64,000 nt of DNA from Clavaria fumosa (Eukaryota; Basidiomycota; Agaricomycetes; Agaricales; Clavariaceae). The notes beneath the pieces were generated by a model that made no database searches, was not told where the DNA came from, and worked only from the letters and a program-made list of their open reading frames with translations. The stretch covers positions 4,588,001 to 4,652,000 of the forward strand of contig OX637794.1 in NCBI GenBank assembly GCA_951802425.1. Reading direction: 5' to 3'. The position numbers and the translations under genes were made by a program. Positions 1-62,198 of the stretch are shown piece after piece (position 1 is the first letter of the stretch; each line of letters starts with the position of its first letter).

Positions 1-3000
1 AAGCCATACTTGGATTCAGACAAAATTGCGACGCCGTAGCCGAACTCGCTCAAATCGGCAAACTGTGCACAGGCTTTAACAACAGGCTCCGAAAAAGCTT
101 CATCACTTACCTTATGGCCGCAAACTTCAAATTTGGCCATGTCCCAGCTCGTATTCTTGTGGGTGGGCCGTTTCACGCAGCCGAATGAGGTCTCGTACGT
201 GCAGTAGTCATTATGAATACTGAGGGGAAGCTCAACTACCGGCAAGTTGTTCAGCGACACACAGCTTGCCCCAACAGCGTGATTCAACTTACATTTCAGA
301 AGTTCGTGCCTCTCATGCCAATCAACCTGAGCATCGAATTTGAACACAAATAGAGAATTGGCTTCTTGAGTCGCTGTAAAATCACATCCCCATCAATACC
401 TTTAGCACCTTTTGTAAGATATAGAGTGATGCTTACCAGGGACAGCGTCTAGTGAGATCTGGTTACGGGACGATGGGCTATCAGAGGTCATTGCAACACC
501 TCGGAGAAAACGTCCGTACAGTCAAGTTGATCAAACTTTTGCCAACCTTCACTTTCGCTTGCACTGACGCTCGCAAAGGGCCAGAAGCCACAACTCGGAT
601 ATCGGAAAATAACAACGGCCGAGCGGTCTCCAAGTGATGCACCTCGACATCTCGATTCGCCCATCAGCATCGCATGCGTCCTACAGAACTGATTCAGAGA
701 GACTCACCCCAAGCATCCCAAAAATTTGGACGGTCTTCAAAGATGACCAAGCCACCCGTCATACCGTCAGCAATGAGCTCGCGGCTGCGGATGAAAGATC
801 GAGAACATGGGTCATTCTCAATAGCACGCCAAACTTCCCTGTAGGAACAAAGGTGAGAGGATTCCACGTACCCCTGGTATAGATCCATCAGACTTGTGAT
901 CCTCCCCTTAGAAACGGTGAGTCGCAAACGGTAATTCCCCAACATAAAATGGTCTGGTCCATCTGTGTACACTAAAAAGAGAGGGGCATGAAGTTCAGCT
1001 TAGGCTCAACAACGTTCCGTTAGGGTTGAACAGAATGGGACAGTACCAATGGGCGATTGTTGTTCTGGTATGAAGACCCCACGAGCCATTGCAATCGGGG
1101 AGTCCGCACTAGCACGCATGAGCAAGAATCCATCTCGTCCCCCAAATTCGTCTTCCTGGAACATGAGTTCTTTGTCTCGTGATGCCTCGGCCAGCGCCCG
1201 TCTCAGGTCGTCGCCGCTGCCCCCCGGTGGGAGCGGGACGCGCACCACCTCCAGGCGGGGGAAGCACGTTGTGTTGAAACCGACGATCTGGCTGAGGGCG
1301 CTGTGAGTAGCGGTCGCATTGGCGGCGTTGTCCGGTCGGAGAAGAGTTTGTGAGGGGAAGGGGAAGAGGACAGCTAGCGCCTCGGCGAGCATGTCCTCGC
1401 ATTCGCTCCGCACCTCCGCGTACAACTTCTCCGCGTCTTCATATACCATACCGCTATTTCCAAAGTTCAAAATATGCGCCGCACAAAGAATACTTTTAGG
1501 AAACGCACATGGCAGACCCTGGTAGGACTAGAAGGGCAAGAGTCGGTCACTCACATGGCAGGATTGCTGCCGTGTAGAACTCACCGTCGTGGACTGTAGC
1601 TAACATAAGCAACAAGGCATTGTTACATGAAAAATGGGAAATTTACATTGGTTCAACAGGACTTTCTCCCAAGCACTATTGATCCTTGCCTTCGGGTAAA
1701 CGTAGTCGCAGATTCTGCACAGCGAGGCAAGTGTGGCGGCCAGCTGGGTAAAATTGTGAGAAAATGCGAAAGCCGTGGGCCACGCGTTGACGTCGCAACC
1801 CACCTCCAAGTCTCTGAGAAGGATCTCGGATTTGCGGTTGCCCATCTTGATGGATCCTGTGGGATAAAATGATTGACACTGGGCCAGAATTTATGGGCGA
1901 AAACAATTCACCATGCGACGTAAATGTCCCGCGATGAAACTGAACCAAAGACGTTAGAAAAAGGTACGCAGGGAAAAGCAACGTCACCACGCGTACTTCG
2001 AGGTACAACTCCCCATGCCTGTGCCGCACAAGGTTGGTCATGATCAGGGTAGGGACACGCGAAAGCAAGTGATTAGATTCACCAGTTAGGCAGCGTCCTA
2101 CCTTGGCGGGTAGACTTCTGCACGTGCTCAAAGAACTGCTCGACGGATCCACCCATGGTCACGACGGGAATTTCTCGATGCTCGATCGCCGTCGCCCGGA
2201 TGCGTCGAAGCTGCAGGTTGGGAAGAGAATAATACGCGTTGGGCCACTGTAAAGCTTACGTTTTCCAACATCGCGGCCAGCGGTCCACCCCCGCCATCGC
2301 CGTTTCCGAACACAAGAAGGGCGGTGTCATTCGACTCCAGATTCTGCGGAGAACATACAAATAGATGAGATGCGGTCTCGCGCAGCGGAAGAATTTGTGC
2401 ACGCATTGCAGACCTTGTGGTTGTTCATGCCCCTCAAAACTTCATCCACTGAAGCTTGCGCCGCATACGTACCTGAAATCAATTTCCCCTATCAGACCAA
2501 GCAAAAAAACCAGAACTGTGCACTGACCAATGGGCGTCATATGGCACAAGACTTGTGTTCCATCGATGCCAACCCAATTGAAGGTGGAATGAGGAAATCG
2601 GTTCCTGGACAGATGGAGAAAGTGATTGATGAACACTGTCGGCGGCCAACAACGAAACAGTCACAGACACACTATTCCTGGCAGGCACAAAGGTTCACAA
2701 TTGTCGATCAGACTATGGTGCAGAAAGCTCACCAGCTCAGCTTTTGCGTGAAGAAATATTTCATCCCAGCACCGCGAAAGAGCTGGGGCAGCGCGCCGGT
2801 CAACCCGAACGAGTCAGGAAGCCACCCCGTCTCGCACCGTTTTCCAAATCGCGATTCAAAGTATTGCTGGCCAAACATCATTTGGCGCACTAGCGCTTCG
2901 CCCGATGGCATGTTGGCATCATGCTCGACCCATGCACCTCCCACAGGATGGAACTGCCCCGAGAGAACTTTCTCTTTGACACGCGCAAAGAGCGCAGGAT

Positions 3001-4428
3001 AGAGCTACGAACAAGAGGAGTCTCTTAGACGTGAGGAATGACGGTATGAAGAAAAGAATGTGGGGGAACGTGTATATTGGCGAACCTCTTCGAGCCATTT
3101 ATACTGTAGGGCTGAGCTGCAGGCAAACCTATGCTCCGGATATCTATCCATGAGGTCCACTTGCGTGGACCAAGACCGCGCCACTTTCTGTTGTGTCGCC
3201 GAGAATGGCCAAAGCCTACATGGATGGAACGCAAGAAGCAACTCAGACTCTCTTCGGAGAGCAACGCCAGCGAGAGATTGAGTGCACTAACCACGCGGTG
3301 TCAATGTGACAATGTCCAATCCCCCACACTCGCGCGTCCAGCGGTCCCTCCTCGTACAAACCAGCCCCTTTCGCCTCCCACCCGCATCCAAACACGGTTT
3401 CCGCAACGCGTCGCGCGGCGGCAATGTATGCCGCGTCTGTGCAGGCACCCTTCTCTGCGAAGACATTCATGATCTCGTTGGCTGCAACGAGAGCGCGATT
3501 CTGCAGTGGCGTGCTGCCTGGCAGGCTGCTGGCGAGCTGCTTTAGCACCGTGAAGTCGTATAGGAGGGCCCACGCTTCGACATTGGGGACGACAAGGTCA
3601 GCGGAGGCGAGCATGAATTTTCGGTTCATCTGAGCAGAGCGGTCTTAGAGAAGGTGTCTTAGTTAAAAGAACGAGAGAACGTTACGTCAGGAGGGCCGAT
3701 GATATTGTCGCCGACGCCAAACATGCCGTTGCAGGTCGATTCAATGACGAAGTGGTGCACCCCCGCCTGACGCGCCGGCTGTGGAATGATATACTCCACC
3801 CTGCGGGTACCATCGTGCCCGCCAGTAATTCCTTGCAGAGGCGTCCCATCGGCGCTGAAGATCATCGCCTCACAGCCTGGGTCAAATTCGACTATAGCAG
3901 AAGGCGGCGCCTGTAAGACGAGTGGTGCGGCGTGTTCAAGAATTGGCAAAACGCACATTGTACTGTGTCATACTGCTCCCAGCTCGCTGGTATGATGATC
4001 GACACTTTCCACCAATGGTTGGTCTATCGATCATCAATGAGGGTATAATAAAGCCTGCTCTCATTGACACACATACCCCTGCCGCAACATGAGATGACAG
4101 AATAAGGTGAAGAAGAAAAGCGTTCCTTACATGAAGGTCCAAATACCTCGCCTTTCTTGGCTGGCCTGAACTGCTGCTTCATAGCTTCCGAAAAGGACGG
4201 TTTCTCTAGACCCGGCGCACTCCATACTTGCAACTGTACGACCTTTGCGTCGTCCAGCCGATGGATGTAGAGCATGGATGAGAGGTTGAAATCGGAGTAC
4301 CGACCCCCATGGAAGTGATTCAGTCTCTCTTGGGTGAGCTGTTTGATCCATTTGGCACCAGAGCTATAGTTCAAGTCAGGGTAAGTAGTCGTCTCGTCTG
4401 GCCGATGGTATCCATGATGAGTTGACAT
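1..4428 (-). CDS. AMS1: GH38 alpha-mannosidase (vacuolar/cytosolic Ams1 type), C-terminus cut by window edge
   Basis: Retaining alpha-mannosidase expected to trim mannose from free oligosaccharides and N-glycans in the vacuole or cytosol. The pieces read in family order on the minus strand: N-terminal [12 protein letters not shown] (exon 1, from ATG 4428), GHCHIDTAW (zinc-binding His/Asp, exon 3629-3292), the [12 protein letters not shown] and GWLPDSFG block (exon 3005-2733; the Asp of WLPD is the family nucleophile), [17 protein letters not shown] (exon 2604-2528), [10 protein letters not shown] (about 2280-2310), FHRGTFTSH (about 1900), then the C-terminal beta domains with [17 protein letters not shown] near 130-175. 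Other exons: 4023-3957, 3891-3686, 3215-3086. A 48-nt intron lies at 63-110. The gene continues left of base 1. Exon 1 to exon 2 keeps frame only with a GTATTT donor at 4146. The better-looking GTAAGG donor at 4130 does not keep frame. Family assignment is very secure; some exon ends are not. Confidence 0.92.
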
Positions 4429-13932: not shown

Positions 13933-14788
13933 ATGCGCACCTACGTAGCAGCTTCGGTTCTGCTCCTCTGCGCTACGGCGGCCACCGCCGCACCGCTCTG
14001 CCCGTACGTTGGTTTCCCCACCCCCCATGGCTCCTCCCCAAGCCTAATCGAGCCCCGCCTCCGCCAGCGGCGCAGGGTGCGGCCTCCAAGCGCGCAGCGG
14101 CACGGGCAGCACGCACGACCCGCGGGCGCCTGCACCCCTGCCGGTGCCCGATATGCCGATGATGCGCTACCGCGTCGGGCTGGCTGGGGCCAGGCCGCGC
14201 GCGAACGCCGACGACGACGACGACGACGATGACGACGGGCTCGACAGGCGCGACCACCATCTGGACGGCCGGGGGGCGGACAAGCCCGGCGTCGCGCTGT
14301 ACAGACGCGCGGACAGGAAGCCTGTTGCGCTGTATGCCAAGCGCGAGCACTACCTGCACGACCGGGAGGCGGCGGGTGGGAAGCCGGGCGTCGCGCTGTA
14401 CAAGCGTGCCGACAAGACGCCTGTTGCGCTGTATGCGAAGCGCGAGTACCATCTGGACGACCACCATCTGGACGACCGGGGGACGGGTGGGGAGCCGGGC
14501 GTCGTTGCGTTGTATGCGCGCGAGGAGCACTTGGCGGGGCGCGCGGACAAGAAGGGGCCTGTCGCGCTGTATGCTAGGGGCAGCAGCTATTTGCACGGCC
14601 GGGAGGCGGGTGGTGGGAAACCTGGCGTCGCGTTGTACAAGCGTGCCGACAAGAAGCCTGTTGCGCTGTATGCGAAGCGCAGCCGCCTGCACGACCGGGG
14701 TTCGGACGGGCCTGTTGCGTTGTATGAACGCAGCCATCTGGACGACCGGGGTTCGCCCGAGGGGCTAGTGCCCATGCATGCACGGTAG
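13933..14788 (+). CDS. Secreted repeat protein with Kex2-type sites; candidate peptide (KEP/RiPP-like) precursor
   Basis: Two exons, 13933-14003 and 14098-14788, joined by a 94-nt GTACGT..GCAG intron that restores frame, giving 253 codons (an acceptor at 14109 is also in frame). Residues 1-20 form a classic signal peptide (MRTYVAASVLLLCATAATAA) ending in Ala. A Pro-rich leader and a run of nine Asp follow. From about residue 85 to the end there are nine copies of a V-A-L-Y core in two alternating forms, PGVALY followed by KR or RR and PVALYA followed by KR or single Arg. Spacers are rich in His, Asp, Leu, Gly and Arg. KR/RR are the recognition sites of the Golgi protease Kex2, so the product should be cut into short Tyr-containing peptides. 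Known precedents for this layout are fungal KEP proteins, yeast alpha-factor type pheromones and dikaritin RiPP precursors (ustiloxin type). No DUF3328/UstYa partner lies in this window. Function is inferred; it could be structural (repellent-like). Confidence 0.82.
14284..14727 (+). repeat. Coding repeat array, nine V-A-L-Y units
   Basis: Nine in-frame copies of the VALY core (one reads VVALY), with a Tyr in every copy. The higher-order unit is about 33 residues, one PVALYA-KR and one PGVALY-KR with spacer, visible two to three times. The DNA repeats too, so the antisense strand also has a long open frame. Confidence 0.88.
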
Positions 14789-31426: not shown

Positions 31427-34400
31427 TTAAAGGGAATTGAGAGGTCTGGGCTTGTTCGGATAAGCATGATGGAAGTCCGAAACAGCCTCAGAGGCATGTA
31501 CGAGTTCTGTAGCTGGTAACCAAGACGTTTCCTCCTTGGTTCCTTCGTATCTGGTCCACCGCACCAAGTAAAGGAGTTTGCAGCTGTGGCATTTGTTGAT
31601 CTTGGAGTTGAGCACTTTGGAGATTTCATGCTCAAGGTCTCTGTTGATCTCTACCAGAGGTGGCAGAGGGAGTATACAATTCAGAATTGTGTTCGGAGTT
31701 ACGGGTTCCAGCATGGAAATGTGGAAGACAGGGTGGACTGCTCGCATGGCCTCAGGGAGTCAGAGTATGAAGGCATGCAAGCTGGCCTCTCCGATGATCT
31801 CGAAGGGTCCAAGGAACTTCTTGGCAAGTTTCGGGGAGGGTCTGCACATATGGAAGTACTTCGCCTTGATGTAGACTTGGTTTCCGACCTTAAACTCTGG
31901 TGCCGGAGTCCGACAGTTGTCTGCCGGACCCTGATAGCGACGTTGCACTTTGGCGATTTGGTTACGGAGTTCTTGGTGCAGCTGATCCAAGTCCACAGCG
32001 AGTATTCGGGCACAAACCGAAGTTACTTCGTGTTCCGGGTACACCAATATATTCGGGTGATAGCCCTTGTTTGCAAAGAATGGAGAGATCCCAGTAGTGG
32101 CACTTGGAGCATTGTTGTAGGCAAACTCCACTAGGGGTAGTAGTTCGGACCAGTTGTCCTGCTGGTAATTGCAGTAACAACAGAGGTACTGTTCCAATGT
32201 CTGATTTGTTCACTCTGTCTGTCTGTTGCCCTCCGGATGATATCTGGAGGTGAAGTGCAAAGTCATGTCAAGGACCTTGCCTAATGAGCGGAAAAAACGA
32301 GAGACGAACTCGGAGCCATGGTTGGAAGTGACGTGCAACAGAACTCCATGTTTCGGAAAGACATGGAGTATGAACAGACAAGCCAACTCCATGGAGTTCA
32401 CTTCATTGGTTGTCAGGATGAAAACCCCTTGCTTCATAAACCTATCAACAACCACTAGAATTGTGGTAAAACCGGAGCTCTCAGGGAGTTGCTCAATGAA
32501 ATCCATCGAAATGGAATTCCACGGTTTCTTGGGTATGGGCAGCTGCTTGAGCGTTCCATATGGCTTATGCCAAGGGGCTTTCGCCCTACCACAAGTCGTG
32601 CAAGATTTGCAAAAGTCCGACACAAATCCTTGGAGTTTTGGCCAGGTATAATCCCTGAATACCAAGGCCGTAGTCTTGGTCCGACCGAAATGTCTGGCAA
32701 GTGGGTGATCATGTCTCGCACATAAAACGTGGAGTTGGAGGTCATTGACGTCCAGTACATAAATCCATCTGTGCTCGCAGAGAAGTCCATCGTCATCCAT
32801 GGACCACTTAGGGTCTGCAGAGTTTGAGCAGAGGTCTTCTAGGATCGGGACCATCACAGGATCCAGCAAGAGTCCAGACTGGATATCCTTGCGGAGTTGA
32901 TTATCGTCAATCACAAATGATGCGCAGAGTGTGGGTACATAAAGCAATGAAGCTCAGAGTGATGAGATCAACTGTCTGTTGGTGAACATCAGCCGGAGGT
33001 TTTGCGGATTGAAGCAGGCATAGTCGCTATCCCCCTCTTTGGGGTAGATGTCCCAATGTCTAGTCAACATGTTGGGTTTCATTCTGAGGTGACCGGGGTG
33101 GAATCGAATCATGAAATTGAACTGGGAGAGGAACTCCAACCACCTGGCTTGATGCTGGGTGAGTAGGCAGACTGTGGAGAAGTACTCAAGGTTCTTATGG
33201 TTGGTAACAACATCGACCGGAGTTTCAGAACCTTTGAGATAGTGCCTCCAGGTGGTAAACACCTCAAATATAGTGAGGAGTTCCTTATCGTGGGTGTCAT
33301 AGTTCAGTTCAGAGACACCTAGGGTACGGGAATGAAAGGCGATAGGATGGACATCACCATTGGAGGCGACTGTAGAGAGTATCGCAGCGACAGCGTAGTC
33401 CGAGGTGTCCATTTCAACTATAAGCGGAGCTCCAGGGATGAAGTGTGAGAGGATCGGAGTGGTAGAGAACGCTGTTTTCAAAGAGTCAAAAGCAGACTGG
33501 CAGTCGTCGGACCAAAGCCACAGGATATTCTTTCGTGTGAGGCCAGTCATCGGGGCGACAATGTCGGAGTATCCATGGACAAAGTGGTGATAGAAATTGG
33601 CGAACCCAAGGAAGGACTGTACGTCTTTGACCTTTCACAGAGTAGGCCAATCCTGTATAGCTTTAACTTTGGCCATATCCATAGAAAGTCCGGCTGGAGA
33701 TAAAACAAATCCGAGATACTCCATGGTTTCAGTGCGAAATTCACACTTAGCTGAGTTTAGGAAGAGACAGTTCTTCCAGAGCCTTTGGAGTACCTCTCAG
33801 ACATGCTCAACATGTTGCTTCAAGTCCTCAGAGTAAATGAGGATGTTGTCAAGATAGATGACCATGAACGTGTCAAGGAGGTCAGAGAATATATCATTCA
33901 TGAAGTGCTGGAAAGTGGTGGGTGCATTGGTGAGCCCGAAGGGCATCACACACCATTCAAAGGATCCGTATCGGGTGCAGAATGTGGTCTTCCATTCATC
34001 ACCCTTGGCGATACAGACCAGGTGATACGCATGTTGGAGGTCAAGTTTTGTATAAATTCGGGCTTTTCCTGGAACATCAAGAAGATCTTTAGTCAGCGGA
34101 AGTGGATAACAGTCTTTTTTGGTCACTTTATTGAGACCACAGAAATCGACACAAAGTCGGAGCATTCTGTTCTTTTTTTGTATGAAAAGCACAGGTGCTC
34201 CATGTGGAGAACAGCTCAGATGGATAAATCCGATGCGAAGATGCTTGTCCAGAAACTCGCTGAGTTCGCTGAGTTCGGACTGCGACAGGGAGTAGACCGC
34301 ACCTGGTGGAGGGGATTCGCCCTCCAGCAGGTTGATTTTTAGGTCATATGGACGATGCGGAGCAAGGGTGTCTGCCTTCTTTTTACTGAAGACATCCGGA

Positions 34401-35239
34401 AAGTCCCTGTACTCCTCTGGAATGGAGAGGAGATCCTGGGGGGTGGTGTTGGGGATGTTGAATGAAGCGGAGGCCACATGCGCGGATTCGCTCAACAATG
34501 TCATGCCAAAGACTTGGGACCTGCGAAGTCCACAAGCCATGACGAACACAGCAGCATTCACAAAAGAAACCTTAGGTGCCTCCTGGAGAGACGGAGTAGA
34601 TGGAATGGTCAGAGATGGAGTCAAAGATGGAGACAGAAGCAGAGACTGAGATGGAGTCCGGGCTTGGTTCAGAGTTGCTGCAGATGACATTTGAACCAGA
34701 GTGCATGGAGCGGAGACAGACAGAGGGACAGAATGGAGAGTGCTGGCTGGTGCACCCTCCGGATCAGATTTCGGAGTTTTTTCCTCATTAGTAGATGGTC
34801 TGGGCTTTATCTGGCCAGTGGTCCAGTCAACCAGTGGGTTGTTTTGGAACAGCCAATTCATTCCCAAGATCACATCACTAGAGGGGTCAAGGTTGGTAAC
34901 TACACACAAGACGTCGGTCGGATCCATGGTGGAGAGCCGAATGGAGAGCCAGACCGCTTCAGTAACCCATATGGAGGTGGTCCCATTAATAAAAATGACC
35001 TCCCAGGGGGTCACCAGAGTTTTTGGAAGATGGAGGCAAGAGGCAAATTTGGCATCAATGAAACAAAGTTCAGTGCCAGAGTCTATCATTGCTTTGAATG
35101 GAGAAGGAATAGAAGGAGAGGAGGCAAGAAGAGAGAGAGAGCTATGAAAGGAAAGGGTATCGAGTATAGGTTTAGTACAATCGGAGTCGGAGCAGCCAGA
35201 GAGTCGTACTGTACTCTCTGGGCTGCTTAATCTTTTTTT
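31427..35239 (-). pseudogene. Gypsy 1 pol: protease, RT, RNase H, integrase, chromodomain
   Basis: One frame on the minus strand from the shift site at 35233-35239 to the stop at 31427. Domains in order: retropepsin with IDSGTELCFID (about 35085), RT with VIYLDNILIYSED (about 33850), RNase H (33550-33000), integrase with zinc-binding and core parts (32790-31900), chromodomain with LVRWTRYEGTKEETSW (about 31550). It is interrupted by five in-frame TGA (33797, 33635, 32954, 32210, 31760, lowest base given). Catalytic residues are altered: RT motif YLDD reads YLDN, and integrase SDRG reads SNHG. The copy must be inactive. All these changes fit C-to-T at CpG on one or the other strand. Confidence 0.93.
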
Positions 35240-36371
35240 GGCACAGAGTCATCTCAGTCGGAGGTGATTTGTGCAGAGCTGGCACTGGCCTGCAAGGTCC
35301 GCTTATGACACTCATTGGCCTTGTGTCCTGCTATTCCACAGAAGAGGCACAGATTATTATTGAAGCGCCATTGGTGCTCCTCTGGAGTCAGTTTCCCATC
35401 CTGACCCAGATGAGCCTTCTTAGTATCACTGGAGCCCTCAGCGGCCTTTGGAACAGAGTTCCCAGAAGTCGGACTGGAGTTCGCCAGACGCTTATCCAAT
35501 GGTTTCTCGGACTTGATATTAGCGCCAGAAGGGTTGGGGGACTTGGAACTATCTGAAGTCTCCTTTTTATTGGTGTTGTTAGGTGTCGGAGCCTTTGCAG
35601 AGTCCCTAGAGATCTCCTGCTGCCGAGCCCAATAACGGCCATCAATAGTGCTGGCTTGCTTGCAGAGTCCGCAGAGCGTGTCCGCGCGGTTAATGTGGGC
35701 CAGTTCATCCTTGATGCAGCTGGCAAGTCCCTTGTAGAACTGCCGTTGCAATGCGTACTCATCCCAATGAACAATGGACGCAAATCTGTTGAACAAAATG
35801 GTATATTTCGTCAACTTCTGGTCCTCACGCATCCGGAGGCGTTCGAGTTCGAACTCCGCCCTGCAGATTGCGTCGTACGGACCAAAGTTCTCTGTAAGTT
35901 GGGAAACAAACATCTTATAGTTCGAAAGAACCGGATGGCCTTCGCCATCCAGGATCATTGGTTCGAACCATTCCAGGGCAAAGCCCTGGAGAAAGGAAAG
36001 GACATAGCATACCTTGTGGGAGTCGGACTTGAATGCTCTTGGGCGATCAAGGAAATTTAACTGGCATTGGACCAAGAAGCTTTTCAACTTCTTAGCGTCT
36101 GAGCCATCAAAGGTATTGGGGTCACGTGGTTTAACCATCTCTGGGCACTTGTTGGCATTAATAATCTTCTGAAGAAGATGCGCCGGAGTTAGTTTGCACT
36201 CGGCTCGAGGTGTCGGAGGTTTATTTAGCTCATCATTGTCGTCAGTGACCGAGGGGTCTGACTCTTTGTCATGGTCCAGGGGTCCAGACACACTTGGAGT
36301 CAGAGTATTGTCAGCCAGTTCTGGGACATCAATGTCATCGGCAACAGGAGGTGGAAGTCGAGCACCAGATC
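35227..36371 (-). pseudogene. Gypsy 1 gag with CCHC knuckle and -1 shift site
   Basis: Retrotransposon Gag: a capsid-like part around KLKSFLVQCQLNFLDRPRAF and FALEWFEPMI, then a basic Lys/Ser linker and the zinc knuckle CLFCGIAGHKANEC. One TGA (35254-35256) lies five codons upstream of the A-run; the frame then reaches TAA at 35227-35229. Just before that TAA the heptamer A-AAA-AAA (35233-35239 on the plus strand as T7) sits in the correct phase for -1 slippage into pol. The native start is lost: the first residues are now read from the LTR of element 2 inserted at 36372. Confidence 0.88.
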
Positions 36372-36661
36372 TATCAGACTGGGTCTCACACAACTTAAGC
36401 GTAAGGTCATGACGACAATACTAAGATAAGGGGAAAAGAGTACAAAAAAGGAAAAGCGAAAGTACTTATAGCGAACGCTTCGGCACTTGCCGGCGTTCCC
36501 ACGCTCGGACCCTCGGATCACGTGATGCGCCCAGGCCCAGGTCATGTGATCTTACATGATAACATAATCCGACCCAGCCACAGGTCATGTGACCTTCCAA
36601 CAACCCTCCCCAGTTTCTCCACAACTGCACTTTGGGATGGCTTACATAAGCGATCCTAACA
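36372..36661 (-). repeat. Gypsy 2 3' LTR
   Basis: 290-bp repeat beginning TATCAGACTGGG and ending CGATCCTAACA on the plus strand, same length as its partner. Confidence 0.95.
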
Positions 36662-36672
36662 TCACCCCCCTC

Positions 36673-39600
36673 TTAAGGCTGGGCGTCCCGACCAGCTAGC
36701 TTGGCCTTGTCAGGGTGAGCAAGGAAGAAGTCCCAGAGAAGCAGTGCCACATTGGTGAGGTTCCGTCGTGGCTCCCAAGTGTTCTCCTCTACAGGGTATC
36801 CCAACCACTTCACCAGGTATCTCACTCCACGCCCCACCTTCTTAACATCAAGGATCGCCTCCACATCATACTCCAGGTGGTCATCATCAATCGTAGGGGG
36901 CAGAGGGGGAGGCAGGTTCTGGGAAGGGAAGGAAGGGGGGTGGTATGGTGTCAACAGCAACTCATTGAAGACCCGATGGATGCGCCAGGCCCGAGGGAGC
37001 TTGAGGCGATACCCAGCAGGTCCCACCTTCTCCTCAACTGCAAAGGGGCCTGCTCTCTTGTTGTCAAGCTTTTTACAGGGCCGGTCCATCTTCAAGTTTC
37101 TAGTATCCAGCCAGACCAGATCTCCCTCAGAGTACTCCCGACTTGGGCGTTTCCCCTTATCGTAGCTCTTCTTCATCGCTGCCACTGCTTTCTCCATTGC
37201 CTCCTTGGCTGCTCTTCGGGACTCCGTGAGCTTAGCCATCCACTCGTCCGCCGCCAGGTTCACCTCAGAAAGTGGCCGGAGCCCCCCATTCCATGGGTGT
37301 CATCCATAATCGAGGAAGAAAGGTGTCTGTCCTGTTGCTGAGTGCTCACGATTATTAAGAGCAAACTCCGCAGTGGACAACCATTCAGCCCAGTCATCCT
37401 GGAGATGGTCCACGTAAGCCCAGAGATAGATCTCCATCTCCTGGTTCGCCCGTTCCGTCTGTCCATCAGTCTGCGGATGAAAGGCAGTACTTGGATTTGC
37501 CTTTACCCAGATCATGGAGTAGAACTCCTTCATGAAGCGGGACACGAACTGGGACCCCCGGTCACTCACAACCTTGTGAGGGACTCCATGGTCACGAAAC
37601 ACTCGATCCTGGAGGAGACGCGCCGCTCCAAGTCCTGTGAGGTCGAGCCCGATCGCTTCGAGCAGTGTCCGTTTCGTGAATTTGTCGACAATAACAAGGA
37701 TGGCATTATGTCCACGGGAGAGGGGGAGGGGACCGACTATGTCCCATGAGATCACCGACCAGGGACCATCGGGCACCAGATGGGGGTGCAGTGGGGCAGC
37801 ACGCTTGGTACGGTCGGGCTTCGTCCGCTGGCATGTCTCACACCCCTGGGCATACCGATCCGCATCTTTTACCATGTCCGGCCACCAATAACCCTTCACT
37901 AGTGCTGCTCTCAACTTCCGGGGCCCAGGGTGTCCAGCAGCGGGGAGGTCATGCTCAAACTCGAGAACGGCCTCACGAGCTCCTAGGGGGACCCAGGTGA
38001 CTATCCCCTTTCGCCAGAGTCCAGCACGATCTCGTGTCCACTCATCATCAAGCTCCTCCGGCTTCTGTATGTGTACCGCGCTATTTTTCTGGAGTAGTGT
38101 CTCCATTTCCGATGTGAATGACACACGGACTTCCGTTTCCGGGAAAACCTGCACTGGTGCATCCTCCTCCACCATCTCTCCATAGTCTGGTCTCCGGGAG
38201 AGTGCATCTGCCTTTGTGTTCGACTTGCCAGTGCGATACTTTATCTCAAAGTCAAAGCACTGGAGCTCTCCAACCCAACGAACCTGCCTCGGCTTCAACT
38301 TCTGGGGCTTCCGGAAGTACTGGAGGTTTGCATGGTCCGTCCAGATCTCGATCATCTCCTCTGCTCCAATGAGGTATGCTCGCCACTCGCGAAGTGCCCG
38401 AATCACAGCCAAGAACTCCTTGTCGTACACATCGTAGTTCTTCTCAGCTGCAGTGAGGGCCTTGGAGATATAGTCAACAACTCTCCAGGTTCCATCCGTC
38501 TGCTGCTGCGAGAGCACTCCACCAGTTGCCAGGTTGCTTGCATCTGTCTCTACCTTCCATCTCCCTTTGTCCTGAGGCAGAGCCAAGACCGGGGCTGATA
38601 CGAGTGCCTGGCGGAGATCTCGGAAGGCTGCTTCCTCCTCCTCCTCCCATTTCCACAGAACATTCCCAGTCAGCTGGAAGAGTGGCTTTGCCTGGGCAGA
38701 AAGATTTGGGATGTGCTGGCGGAGGTAGTTCAGCATCCCATTGAACCTCTGGACATCCTTCACATTCTTAGGATGTGGCCAATCTCGGACTGCCACACCC
38801 TTGGCCGGATCATGCTCTAGTCTGTTGTGGGAGATCTTCATCCCCAGGAAGATGATCTCACTCTTCTCAAACTCGCATTTACTGAGTTTGAGACACAACC
38901 CATTCTCTCCAAACTTCCTCAAGACCCGATCCATCCAGTACCGGTGTGTAGCCAAGTCCTCTGCAAACACAATGACATCATCCACATAGGCCCTCACATG
39001 TCCTCCTGCAATCTCCTCCCTCAACACATGGTTCATGAAGCGTTGGAAGGTGGCAGGGGCATTCTGCAGTCCAAACCACATGACAGCTGGTTCGAAGAGT
39101 CCACGGGGTGTCAGGAAGGCGCAATGGTGCTGGTGCTCGGGCCAGACCTGCATAGATGGGAAACCTCCCTTTGCATCAATCTTAGAGTAGATCGACGCTC
39201 CTTTAAGCACATCCACTGTGTCTCGGATGCGGGGGAGGGGGTACTTGTCCTTGATCAGGTGTGCATTCAGCCTCGAGTAGTCGATGATTGGCCGCAGTTT
39301 GTCCTTCTCATGTTTGAAGAAGAAGGGGCTGGCATACGGGGATTTCGAGGGCCGCATTCGTCCAGAAGCAAGCTGCTCATCCACCCAACGGTTCATCTCC
39401 ACCATCTCCTGCCGTGTCAAAGAATACAGCTTGGAGGAGAGGTGCTCAGGGTCCTTTTTGAACTCGATCTTAATATCGAAGTCTGGTCGGGAGTGGGGAA
39501 GTTCATCCCACTTTGCTTCACTAAACACCAAAGGGTAGCGGCTGGGCCAATCGGGGGTAGGGCCAGAGTTGGGAAAACGGGTGTCCAGAATACTCGTGGA

Positions 39601-41103
39601 TGCGAGGGTACTCGTTTTCAGGGGTGCAGGGGCTCGAGGGGATGGGGAACACTGTGGGGGGCAGCGGGTAAGGCTCAGCTCTGCCTTCTGCCAGTTGATA
39701 TCCGGGTTATGCCGCTTGAGCCAGTCATGCCCAAGGATGACCTTGTGGGACTGGGTCTTTCCCAGCAGAAAGTGGATCCGCTCCTGGTGGTCACCAACTC
39801 TCACCAGCACCTCTATCCCATATCGGACCTTTCCATCCCTGTCCTGTGTCCCATCCACATTATACATGGTGATTGGGTTCAGCAGGAGAGATGGCTCCAG
39901 TCCCACTCCTTTCGCCCACTCCAAATCCATGAAGCAGTTGGTGCACCCTGAGTCGACAAGGGCCTTCATTGTGGTCCCTTTGCCAGTGCTGAAAGCCTCC
40001 AAGTGCACCTGGATGGCTAGCTCTCGTGGCACATGTTTCCGCACTTCTGGCCGCACTCTGGTTAGGCGCTCTGCCAGTCTCACTTCCTCCTTCACCTCAG
40101 CCCCAATTCGGGTATGTCTCTGCTGCAAGATAGTATATCGGGGTATACTTGCAGCAGGCACAGGGACGGAAAGGGGGCTGGCACACTTCTTCTCCCCAGT
40201 GGGAGTCCTCCTCTCTCTCTCACACAGCTCTATGCAGGCTCGGAGCTGTGCAATCTCTTTCTCATATCCCTCTGCCATTTGGGGGGCACATGGTGCTGCC
40301 CGGTTTTGGGCCCTTGGGACCTGCAGACGCGTATCAGGCAGGGGGCAGAAACGGACAGCATGGCCAGTCTGGTGGCATCGGAAACAACATCTCTCATCAG
40401 CAGGGGCCCATCCTCGGGCCATGGCCACATCTGGAGTACACAGCAGAGGGGTCACAAGAGGTCGCGAAACGGTCACGGCAGGTCACGGTAGGGTTGCGGT
40501 GGGTCGCGGTGTCCGTTCCGTGAGTATCCCATCCAGTTGCCTTTGCTGGGCATCAAGCCTCTCAGCCAGCACCTTCCATTCTCCATATGTCTCTGGCATC
40601 GGGGAGACACCATAGATTCTCTCCACCAACCTCCTACTCAGGTTCAACTCCAGCCAATGGACTAGGATTCCTGAGTCCTTCTCTGCACTCAACTTCGCCC
40701 GTCGGGACAGCGTCTCGAATTTCGCGAAGAACTCTGGTGCTGTCATGGCACCCTGTTTCAGCCCTGCAATATCGGCAAGGGCAGTCGCATGGTCATTCGG
40801 GTCATCGAATGCGCGCTTCATCTCCTCCACAAACTCTGCCCAGGTTCTGGCCTTGCCACTACCCAGGATCTCTTCTGCCTTCATATTCGCCCACTCTGCA
40901 GCGAATCCTTCTCCAGTAATTTTGCTCAGAGCAAAAAGGACCTTCACCAGGTCCACAGCATAGACAGTCGGGTTCGCCATAAACAGGAGGCGAAGGGATC
41001 GGAGGAACATACGGAAGTTCCTTTTCTGCCCATCAAAGGGGGCAACAGATAGGTCAAGCCTCATAGGTTGGGCTACAGGCGGGGCGACATGGTCTGCCAT
41101 CAC
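36673..41103 (-). pseudogene. Gypsy 2 gag-pol polyprotein, open except for two TGA codons
   Basis: A single frame of 1477 codons from ATG 41103. It contains Gag (to about 40480), CCHC knuckle CCFRCHQTGHAVRFC, protease LVDSGCTNCFM, RT with YVDDVIVFAED, RNase H with VETDASNLATGG, and integrase with intact SDRGSQF and DGQTERANQE. It ends with a chromodomain (RYLVKWLGYPVEENTWEP). The only stops are TGA at 40483-40485 (LPxPAV) and 37300-37302 (DYGxHPWNG); CGA (Arg) fits both places. All catalytic motifs seen are intact. Gag and pol share one frame here, unlike element 1, which uses a shift. Readthrough or a less mutated sister copy elsewhere could supply function. Confidence 0.95.
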
Positions 41104-41674
41104 AGGCCCTGGATGCTGTAAATAAAGTTCCAGGCCTTGGGCACTCAGGATTTCTTCGATCTCTTAACAGTCCTGTCCTCTTAGGCTGCTCTTCTGTGTA
41201 CTTATGTACCTATAGAACTCTTATTCTATGAAACTTTTGTTAACGTGGGGCCCAAATGGTGTCCCAGGTGGTCACTCCACAACTCCTAATGAGTTGCCCG
41301 TGCGCCCTTCTGACAATGGTCACAGAGCAAGGGCCCTGTCCACTGGACCAGGAAACTACAGAAAGACTATGTAGGGGCCTTTCCTTGCCCTGTACACTAC
41401 ACGATTCACTGGTACGTAGCTGTAAAACAAAGTTCCGGGCCTTGGGCACTCGGTATCACTTGGGGAGGGTCACAGTTGACTTCCTCTGGGTCTGGTCACA
41501 TGTATCTACACACAGTAAAAATTTCGCGCGGTTCTGTTACACACCGCAGGCAGGGTAAAGGAGAAGAGGATGATAGGGGCTGAGCTGTGACAACGTGTCA
41601 CAGTTTGAAATTAAGGGTCCAGGCTAGCCGGGTTAGGACACGGGGCTAGGGCGGACAGGCGGATCTTAGTATTA
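41104..41674 (-). other. Gypsy 2 5' leader
   Basis: 570 bp between the 5' LTR and the gag ATG without a coding frame. Two diverged copies of a roughly 40-bp word (AAAGTTCCRGGCCTTGGGCA) occur at about 41125 and 41425. The primer-binding site next to the LTR was not recognised. Confidence 0.6.
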
Positions 41675-43098: not shown

Positions 43099-43137
43099 GT
43101 GTATCCAGACTGACACCTTTGTAGTCCTCCAATCAAT

Positions 43138-44261
43138 ATGTCCTCAGAACAACCCTGTCATAGCACCTGCCTAAACCCAGTCTGTAGTCGACCCCTGTCC
43201 CCCAGGGAACCGGAGGCCGATGCCCCACTCGCCATAACTCTGAGTGAAGTCTCGTCTCCCGATGTCACTACCCCAACCAGCCGAGACCCCGCAGCAGCCC
43301 CGCCCAATCTTGCTGAAGCCATCCAAGCCCTCGCAGAGTCCACTAAGAACAAAGGCTCGTCACAGTCGAGAGTTAGGGACCCCGAACCCTTTGACAGGTC
43401 CGACCCCCACAAACTCCATAGTTTTCTGGTCCAATGCAAATTAAATTTCCAGGACTGGCTGAACAACTTCCAGAGGGACTCGGTAAAGGTCAATTTCGCC
43501 ATCTCCTTCCTCCAAAGTACAGCCCTTGAATGGTTTGAACTGGCCCTCCTCAGAGAAGCTCCAGAAGAAGATTGGCTTGAAGACTGGGGCCTGTTCCTTC
43601 AGGAACTCAAACACAATTTTGGCCCCTTTGACTCGACTGGAGACGTGGAAGCAGAGATTGACCATCTCCACATGAAGGACTCGCACCGTGTCACCAAGTA
43701 CAATGTCGAGTTCAACTGCATTTCCGCACGCCTTCACTAGGACGAAGCCGCACTCCGCCACAACTATTACCATGGCCTCCCAAACCGGATCAAGGATGAA
43801 ATTGCCTGGATCGGGAAACTGACCTCGCTTCCGGAACTCCGGAAGCTCACCAACGACATCGACCGATGTTACTGGGAACGTCGTGGGGAGCTTACACACG
43901 AGGCTCTGAAGGGGGATAACTCCTCAAAATCCGAGAAAAAGCCCCAGAATCAGAATCAGAACCACTCCAGACAGTCCGGGGCAAATAAGTCCAGAAAATC
44001 GAATTCCGGTAATTCGCTGAGTTCTTCCAACCAGGCGAAGAAGTCTGATCCCCTCAAAGGAAAGATCAGTGAAGAAGGGAAGTTAACCCCGGAAGAGCGC
44101 CAGTGGTGCTTTGATAATAATTTGTGCCTAGTTTGCGGAGGCACTGGACATGTCACGAAGGACTGTCCGAAGACCACCTGCAATCAGAAGGGTAAGGCAC
44201 GCATGGCTGCAACTTCCAAACTGCAGTCCGAAGCCAAACCTAAGGCAGCAAAAAACTCATA
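43138..44261 (+). pseudogene. Gypsy element 3 gag
   Basis: The frame from ATG 43138 encodes a Gag close in layout to that of element 1: FDRSDPHKLHSFLVQCKLNF, ALEWFELALL, and a CCHC knuckle CLVCGGTGHVTKDC near 44125. It has one in-frame TAG at 43738-43740 where Trp (TGG) is usual. It reads to TAA at about 44260. Confidence 0.85.
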
Positions 44262-44419
44262 AGCAGCCCTTTGAACTCCGCATAGCTGGAGGGTTGCTCC
44301 GAAGCAGCCTGTGTGACTTATGAGTTTCGCCTCGGTGCATCCGCCATTTCTGACCCTGCTGACTCTCTGTACATTAATTTGACTGCACCAAATTTATCTG
44401 GTTCCCATACATCTGCACC

Positions 44420-44831
44420 CTGATTGACTTGGGGTCTTCACATTCATTTATAAATCCGAAATTTGTCCAGGAACACCAACTCTGCACATTCCCAATCCTG
44501 CCCCGAAAACTCCTCTTGTTCGATGGATCATCAACATCCATTGTATCAACCCAAGTGACTCTCCCGATCTGTTTCCTGACCAGAGAAACCTTTAAGGTGA
44601 AACTCCTGGTTGCCCTGATGATGGATTGCTCCACTGTCCTCAGATACAACTGGCTCACCCACTACAACCCATCGATTGACTGGGCCAAGAGCACTATCAG
44701 TTTCCGAACACTGGGGAGGTTGATGGTGGGTAATGGATGGTTGTCTCAGAGGTGGATGAGTAGAAGGTTCATAGCATATGTCCCATGCCACCTGTTCTCA
44801 GAGCTGCTGTGCAAGCTCAAACTTTTTTCAT
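44420..44831 (+). pseudogene. Gypsy element 3 protease/pol fragment
   Basis: A retropepsin-like segment, DLGSSHSFINPKFVQEH, has the catalytic DSG changed to DLG, and CSTVLRYNWLTHYNPSIDWA follows. The frame ends soon after and no RT is found, so the element is truncated here. Confidence 0.75.
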
Positions 44832-61022: not shown

Positions 61023-62198
61023 CTAGGTCAACAATTGCATGTACCTATTTTGAGTTGGGTAAGTTGGTTGTGGTATCTGTAGATGGTCATGAACAGAATC
61101 TTTCATGAAATGGGCAATGCACAATCGTTCACCACCCTCCCAATCCATCACTTCATGCAGAAAAACTTTACCCACAAATACAAGGACAGTTCCAGGATTG
61201 TAGGAAAATTGACCACCAAGTTCCTGGAGTGTCATGTATGCCTGCTTGTGAGTTCCAGCACTAACCAAAAGATCGTAGTGAGCCAGGCAGCCTCCCTTGT
61301 CGCAATGTGCAGGAGTCTTCCTGTTCACAATGACTTCCATTGCCATAAAAATTGAGGGCCAAAGCTGCACATTCTTGTATGTTTTTGCCATTGCCACCCC
61401 AGCTTGCACTTGGTCAATGGCTGAGCTCCCAAAGTCATATTGTTCTGGTGCAACCAAGGCCATAATTGAATTGCACAGCTTCTCTGCATGTGCGATTCCT
61501 CGAATGAAGGAGGAACCATATGCAGTCTGCAAGCTGGTCGAAGCATGCAGTTTATCACTGAGCTGTTGACATTGAGACAGTAAAACAAGGTAGTTATGTG
61601 ACAGCATTACCTGTTGCTGGCCTTGCATAAACCAGCCAGGAGAGAAGGACTTGATTCCGGCACCAAAACAACCTCCGCCTTCAGGTTCGACAAATCCCGT
61701 AGTATGCCCAGCATTACTTGGCAAGTCTCTGTCCAGATGCTTGCTAATGTGCTCACACCCTCTGTTGTACTGCTCCTGTAAATTGGTTAGAAAATATGGT
61801 TCAAAATTGATTGCCTTATCTCACCACTCTATCACTAGAAAGAATTCCAGGCAGAGCCCACAGCAAGATATGGCCATGCTTATCAATTATTGTGCAGGGT
61901 TCCTCTTGAACACCGAGGTCTTGAGGCTGCTTGAAATACTTGCTGAATTTCACCAAGGCTGCATCAAAATTATTGCTGCGTTTGGCTATGAGATTGATAT
62001 GTTTCACACTGTCTGCAAACCGATCTATGTCCCATTCTGTTTGAACTGAATGGTCAAAGTGTTCAGCTGATTGTTGCAAGTCATTTAAGCTAACGCACTT
62101 GGGTTGAAGAGGGCATATGCCACAGTTAGAACTACACATTGTAGTTCTTCTTGAGTCACAGGTTGGTCGTCAGCATTACTCTTGTTGCTGGAATCCAT
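61023..62198 (-). CDS. TET/JBP-type 2-oxoglutarate/Fe(II) dioxygenase linked to the KDZ element
   Basis: Convergent with the transposase, stop codons about 110 bp apart. It runs from ATG 62198 (MDSSNKSNADDQPVTQEELQ). An exon covers VQTEWDIDRFADSVKHIN to LLWALPGIL. After a GTGAGA..TACAG intron (about 61777-61822) comes EQYNRGCEHISKHL to the stop at 61023. The catalytic features are present: AHCDKGG (the HxD iron ligands), YNPGTVLVF, a distal His in KVFLHEV and an Arg in GERLCIAHF for 2-oxoglutarate. In fungi this family is associated with KDZ transposons and predicted to oxidise 5-methylcytosine in DNA. The 233 codons of the catalytic part are open. Near 62095 the N-terminal frame appears to shift by one base (or an intron is hidden), so activity is not certain. 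Confidence 0.85.

Follow-up and report, generated by a model that had tools for sequence, protein, structure and literature searches.

It seems quite likely that the gene at positions 13933-14788 (plus strand) of the window, by which we mean the whole stretch of 64,000 nucleotides analysed here (C1:4588001-4652000), is present in a single copy in its agaricomycete host and encodes a KEX2-processed repeat protein (KEP), from which two related types of linear peptide would be released. Judging from the sequence, the product is probably a secretory protein: a signal peptide would bring the precursor into the secretory pathway, kexin would cut after KR and RR (and perhaps after some single arginines), and a Kex1-type carboxypeptidase would then trim the basic residues. 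In this way, several copies would be released of pieces whose terminal KPGVALY bears a free tyrosine, and of ADKxPVALYA, which ends in alanine. Most likely, the products would have an extracellular role, either as signals or toward other organisms, which is the least certain step of the scheme.

The gene consists of two exons, with its ATG at 13933, its stop at 14786-14788 and a predicted product of 263 aa:

13933..14003, plus strand: exon 1, with the start codon and a signal-peptide-like stretch, 23 codons (MRTYVAASVLLLCATAATAAPLC), and two bases of a split codon
14004..14067, plus strand: most likely intron, 64 nt (GTACGT ... CTAAT at 14044-14048 ... CCGCCAG)
14068..14788, plus strand: exon 2, with a Pro/Asp-rich leader, the core array and the stop codon TAG

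The N-terminus, MRTYVAASVLLLCATAATAAP, contains a hydrophobic segment (Kyte-Doolittle values reach 2.38 over 11 residues) that is closed by an Ala-x-Ala-like end, which by hydropathy and reading is compatible with a secretion signal (the KEP papers used SignalP). Both the signal peptide and the Pro- and Asp-rich leader described in an earlier note on this DNA are thus recovered, the former as a signal-peptide-like stretch and the latter in exon 2.

Without splicing, the frame of exon 1 hits a stop at 14230-14232, upstream of the cores, and an intron is therefore required. In this respect the phase-restoring intron of the earlier note stands, as does its donor (14004), whereas its end at 14097 is probably wrong. 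For donor 14004 there are four frame-keeping AG acceptors (14052, 14067, 14097 and 14109), while donor 14012 with 14075 or 14090 is also in frame, and GC donors likewise. The only CTRAY motif within 13990-14130 is the CTAAT at 14044-14048, whose branch A lies 20 nt from acceptor 14067 versus 50 nt from acceptor 14097; the latter would moreover skip four other AGs after the branch, whereas 14067 skips one (14052, 5 nt from the branch A). Because of this difference in distance and in intervening AGs, 14004-14067 is most likely the intron rather than 14004-14097, and acceptor 14097 was judged unlikely. The branch distance is a guide rather than proof, because among the predicted introns of the neighbouring PNS1-like gene (55, 55, 60, 71 and 62 nt, the first four inside the stretch aligned in full to relatives and the fifth outside it) four out of five have a branch-like motif at 14-25 nt from the acceptor, and the only such motif of the remaining one is 52 nt off. 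Acceptor 14067 leads to 263 aa and acceptor 14097 to 253 aa, with identical cores either way.

The array in exon 2 contains nine VALY cores, the number that had been counted before, which are arranged as follows:

14282..14344, plus strand: core pair 1, KPGVALY-RR-ADRKPVALYA-KR (repeat family D2)
14381..14443, plus strand: core pair 2, KPGVALY-KR-ADKTPVALYA-KR (repeat family D2)
14492..14578, plus strand: degenerate core pair 3, EPGVVALYA-R-EEHLAGR-ADKKGPVALYA-R, in which one lone Arg follows either core (the coordinates span the codons of the residues named)
14618..14680, plus strand: core pair 4, KPGVALY-KR-ADKKPVALYA-KR (repeat family D2)
14708..14731, plus strand: last single core, GPVALYER (sequence reading)
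14762..14785, plus strand: possible decayed tenth core, GLVPMHAR (of the five PVALY copies, two agree with it at 15 of 24 bases)

A lysine or arginine is found at most two residues downstream of all nine cores, and a dibasic site at most three residues after six of them, the other three being without such a site. The alternation of PGVALY-KR and PVALYA-KR that had been reported is real in the three clean pairs; the fourth pair (number 3 above) is degenerate and the last core stands single. The clean two-core units are 63 nt each (starts at 14282, 14381 and 14618), with the pattern KPGVALY-(K/R)R-ADxxPVALYA-KR, and form a family that is defined by DNA similarity. No other of the 133 in-frame 24-mers that lie outside the VALY copies in exon 2 reaches 15 of 24 bases, and GLVPMHAR may be a decayed tenth core. 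With respect to codon use, the A cores have GTC...TAC in three out of three copies, and the B cores have GTT in four out of five and TAT in all five. These differences suggest that the two core types split before the unit multiplied.

With KR and RR taken as cut sites, and both the secretion signal and the repeats assessed independently of the authors' programs, the predicted protein would count as a KEP under the published working definition (section 13 of PMC7329392 and the methods of PMC9769878). This definition asks for a minimum of three similar pieces, each 8 aa or longer, between KR/RR sites; here these are ADRKPVALYA, ADKTPVALYA and ADKKPVALYA; three further KR/RR-bounded pieces (17, 19 and 65 aa) end in KPGVALY. 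If KR, KK, RK and RR are all used as sites, as in the scoring of PMC7329392 (section 13), two of the three ten-residue pieces shrink to PVALYA, and KPGVALY still forms the end of three pieces, which differ in length. The definition also asks for a kexin in the host, and P_proprotein and Peptidase_S8 matches indeed lie side by side at C1:3429732-3431129, read through stops that are probably introns. The Kex2-processed repeat precursor of the earlier note is therefore supported by the anatomy of the array as well as by kexin-type matches in the genome. Alternatively, the gene could encode a repeat-rich protein, secreted or at the cell surface, that is cut only partly or never, with free peptides as a by-product. 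The low-complexity Asp/Pro leader would fit such a protein, as would the 65-residue piece (bounded by KR sites, with no KR inside), but the basic residue after each of the nine cores and the complete lack of Pfam families in the protein (0 at E 0.01) argue against it, and we consider it rather unlikely.

The variation among the repeats provides a further line of evidence. When copies are picked by motif, the nine VALY copies show 56 synonymous to 0 non-synonymous pairwise differences (the zero being built in), and pN/pS amounts to 0.07 for KPGVALYKR and 0.24 for RADxxPVALYAKR, compared to 0.88 for the seven spacers. Selecting VALY and spacer copies by motif favours this contrast between core and spacer, and the DNA-defined 63-nt family is the fairer sample: the pairwise differences of its three units number 2, 6 and 13 at codon positions 1, 2 and 3, in just 10 variable columns (1, 3 and 6 by codon position, p 0.077). 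When spacer is included, as in the best repeat pair of 124 nt, the differences are 5, 6 and 7 by codon position, i.e. the third-position excess is absent. Selection on the cores is suggested by these patterns. It could even be that the gene makes a two-peptide, lineage-restricted mushroom signal, in which type A (KPGVALY) and type B (ADKxPVALYA) were kept distinct through the multiplication of the unit, as if both were needed together (e.g. because each is a ligand of its own, or because one is an agonist and the other a modulator of the same receptor), a speculation to which we give a small chance.

It might also be argued that the stretch is not a gene, but a decayed or chance G+C-rich repeat stretch. 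The opposite (minus) strand is open too, for 263 codons, and open frames alone are therefore weak evidence at this locus; the lack of a relative in the protein database (see below) and the retrotransposon pieces elsewhere in the window and its flanks would fit as well. However, the signal-peptide-like start, the splice signals and the array all lie in one frame, and VALY occurs nine times in the protein, versus a maximum of four for any 4-mer when the sequence from residue 21 onward is shuffled 10,000 times. Together with the third-position-rich differences in the core pairs, which weigh weakly in the same direction, this makes a non-genic stretch very improbable.

No relative of the presumed KEP was found in a database of 5.8 billion proteins, either with the 253-aa model or with residues 83-263 of the corrected model without its poly-Asp run (E up to 10). 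None of the 7999 and 7997 candidates scored in these searches passed, and since exact shared five-residue words are required, distant relatives may escape. When the same database was queried with the PNS1-like neighbour as a control (residues 180-640), 185 matches were obtained, which shows that mushroom proteins are present in it. Among the 120 matches listed of these 185, identities range from 58 to 76%, and 106 of the 120 carry an organism name (best named, 75%), which are presumably all from mushroom-type (agaricomycete) genera. With no listed relative above 76% identity, close kin of the species may be missing from the database. VALY-type cores were likewise not met among the matches listed in a search of the running text of articles (core lists would sit in supplementary tables and figures).

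Within the genome (48.76 Mb in 17 contigs), no second copy of the gene was found by a whole-genome protein search at E 10, which returned two fragments of this same gene and a single weak match (E 0.1, L004); the latter was interpreted as a GCN5-like acetyltransferase region and set aside. A degenerate nucleotide pattern that encodes VALY followed by a basic-like codon had 46 matches in the genome, compared to 62 for the reversed control; 8 of the 46 fall in this gene, and the rest do not group into any further array. The gene is apparently single-copy. One identical 17-base match occurs five times on contig C13 (C13:1272134-1532012) and once each on C1 and C7, and is perhaps a mobile element.

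Several other genes and elements are present in the window. A GH38 alpha-mannosidase gene occupies 3-3286 (minus strand) and continues into L017:9354-9755 (C1), with the following Pfam domains:

2732-3286, minus strand: Glyco_hydro_38N
1603-1890, minus strand: Alpha-mann_mid, below its cut-off
3-392, minus strand: 38C, with 38C2 in L017

The PNS1-like choline-transporter gene runs from 16858 to about 19600 on the plus strand (predicted to encode 783 aa, with five introns of 55-71 nt). Ty3/gypsy-type retrotransposon pieces with reverse transcriptase, RNase H, integrase, chromo and gag domains are found at 32213-41163 (minus) and 43114-44830 (plus), belonging to at least two adjoining elements, and an open frame at 61026-61820 (minus) contains a Tet_JBP 2-oxoglutarate oxygenase domain (E 1.1e-16).

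The neighbourhood also bears on whether the gene could encode the precursor of a dikaritin-type cyclic RiPP, an alternative raised in the earlier note together with a search for DUF3328 genes, in which the tyrosine of each core would be oxidatively cyclised by UstYa-type (DUF3328) enzymes and the product freed by Kex2. Like the dikaritin precursors (of ustiloxin, phomopsin and asperipin-2a), the protein is a Kex2-type repeat precursor with a tyrosine in each core, and a secretory-type precursor with its tyrosines between Kex2 sites is what PMC7329392 describes for ustiloxin. The core does not, however, resemble the EDYXI motif that PMC6339444 gives for the ustiloxins and phomopsins, and a UstYa gene was not detected: PF11807 (UstYa/DUF3328) was unmatched genome-wide at E 0.001 as well as at E 10, which, as the profile matched in no control genome, makes its absence likely rather than proven. 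The exon-by-exon method behind this negative did detect STE3, S8 and DPPIV in the genome. PF11807 was also absent among the Pfam-scanned frames of the window and its 30-kb flank, as was any other RiPP-tailoring enzyme. These comprised all 64 window frames of at least 150 aa, 109 of the 182 window frames of 85-149 aa (first 30.2 kb) and all 102 flank frames of at least 90 aa (short exons can escape), at a cut-off of E 0.00001 in one scan and 0.001 in the others. Of 63 frames that overlap others, one matched (PF18239 HA1, E 0.00072), which is near chance for so many frames. In the survey of PMC7329392, 22% of KEP genes had DUF3328 neighbours. All in all, a dikaritin-type product appears quite improbable.

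A similar conclusion can be drawn for an alpha-factor-like mating pheromone, the other alternative of the earlier note, which appears extremely improbable. A secretion signal and Kex2-separated repeats are shared with the alpha-pheromone precursors of ascomycetes, and the residues EA, EA and GA that come next after three single-Arg sites would fit STE13 trimming if the protein is cut there, with which a DPPIV-type gene match on contig C8 is compatible. However, the residues after the seven KR/RR sites are DH, AD, EH, AD, EY, AD and SR, none of which is XA or XP, and STE2 (PF02116) was unmatched genome-wide at E 1 (likely absent, not proven so, as this search matched in no control genome). For STE3, in contrast, there were 27 exon matches at a threshold of E 1 (21 of them above the cut-off), which fits a basidiomycete with a-type pheromones; according to PMC9769878, basidiomycete mating pheromones are of the prenylated a-type. 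Nineteen of the 27 matches lie within C5:601849-616140, a dense cluster that is probably a pheromone/receptor mating-type locus, and further matches are found at C5:635363, C5:763590 and C9:832177. The host is an agaricomycete, because of these STE3 exon matches and the named mushroom relatives of the PNS1-like neighbour.

The gene is thus best compared with known KEPs, including those of the mushrooms Coprinopsis, Lentinula and Pleurotus (PMC6339444, PMC7329392, PMC9769878), with which it has in common the signal-peptide-like start, the short repeated cores between dibasic sites, the host kexin and an orphan status that is common to many KEPs. In PMC7329392, 7878 fungal KEPs were predicted, of which 2560 are without a homologue, and an orphan KEP is therefore expected rather than surprising. 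It differs from known KEPs in its VALY/VALYA core, in having two alternating core types per unit, in its several single-Arg sites and in the lack of a detectable sequence relative. According to PMC9769878, mushroom KEPs yield linear, minimally modified peptides, with products that, on expression in Pichia, are apparently cleaved after a single Arg. In the same study, six Coprinopsis KEP knockouts are described as being without a visible phenotype, which its authors take as pointing to biotic interactions; following that view, such a role is proposed for the VALY peptides, albeit with low certainty.

KEPs are a widespread and little understood kind of fungal gene. The present gene would leave the picture of this known class unchanged, while adding to it a well-delimited case, apparently present in one copy and with two core types in alternation, which would make both peptide detection and gene removal easy to read.
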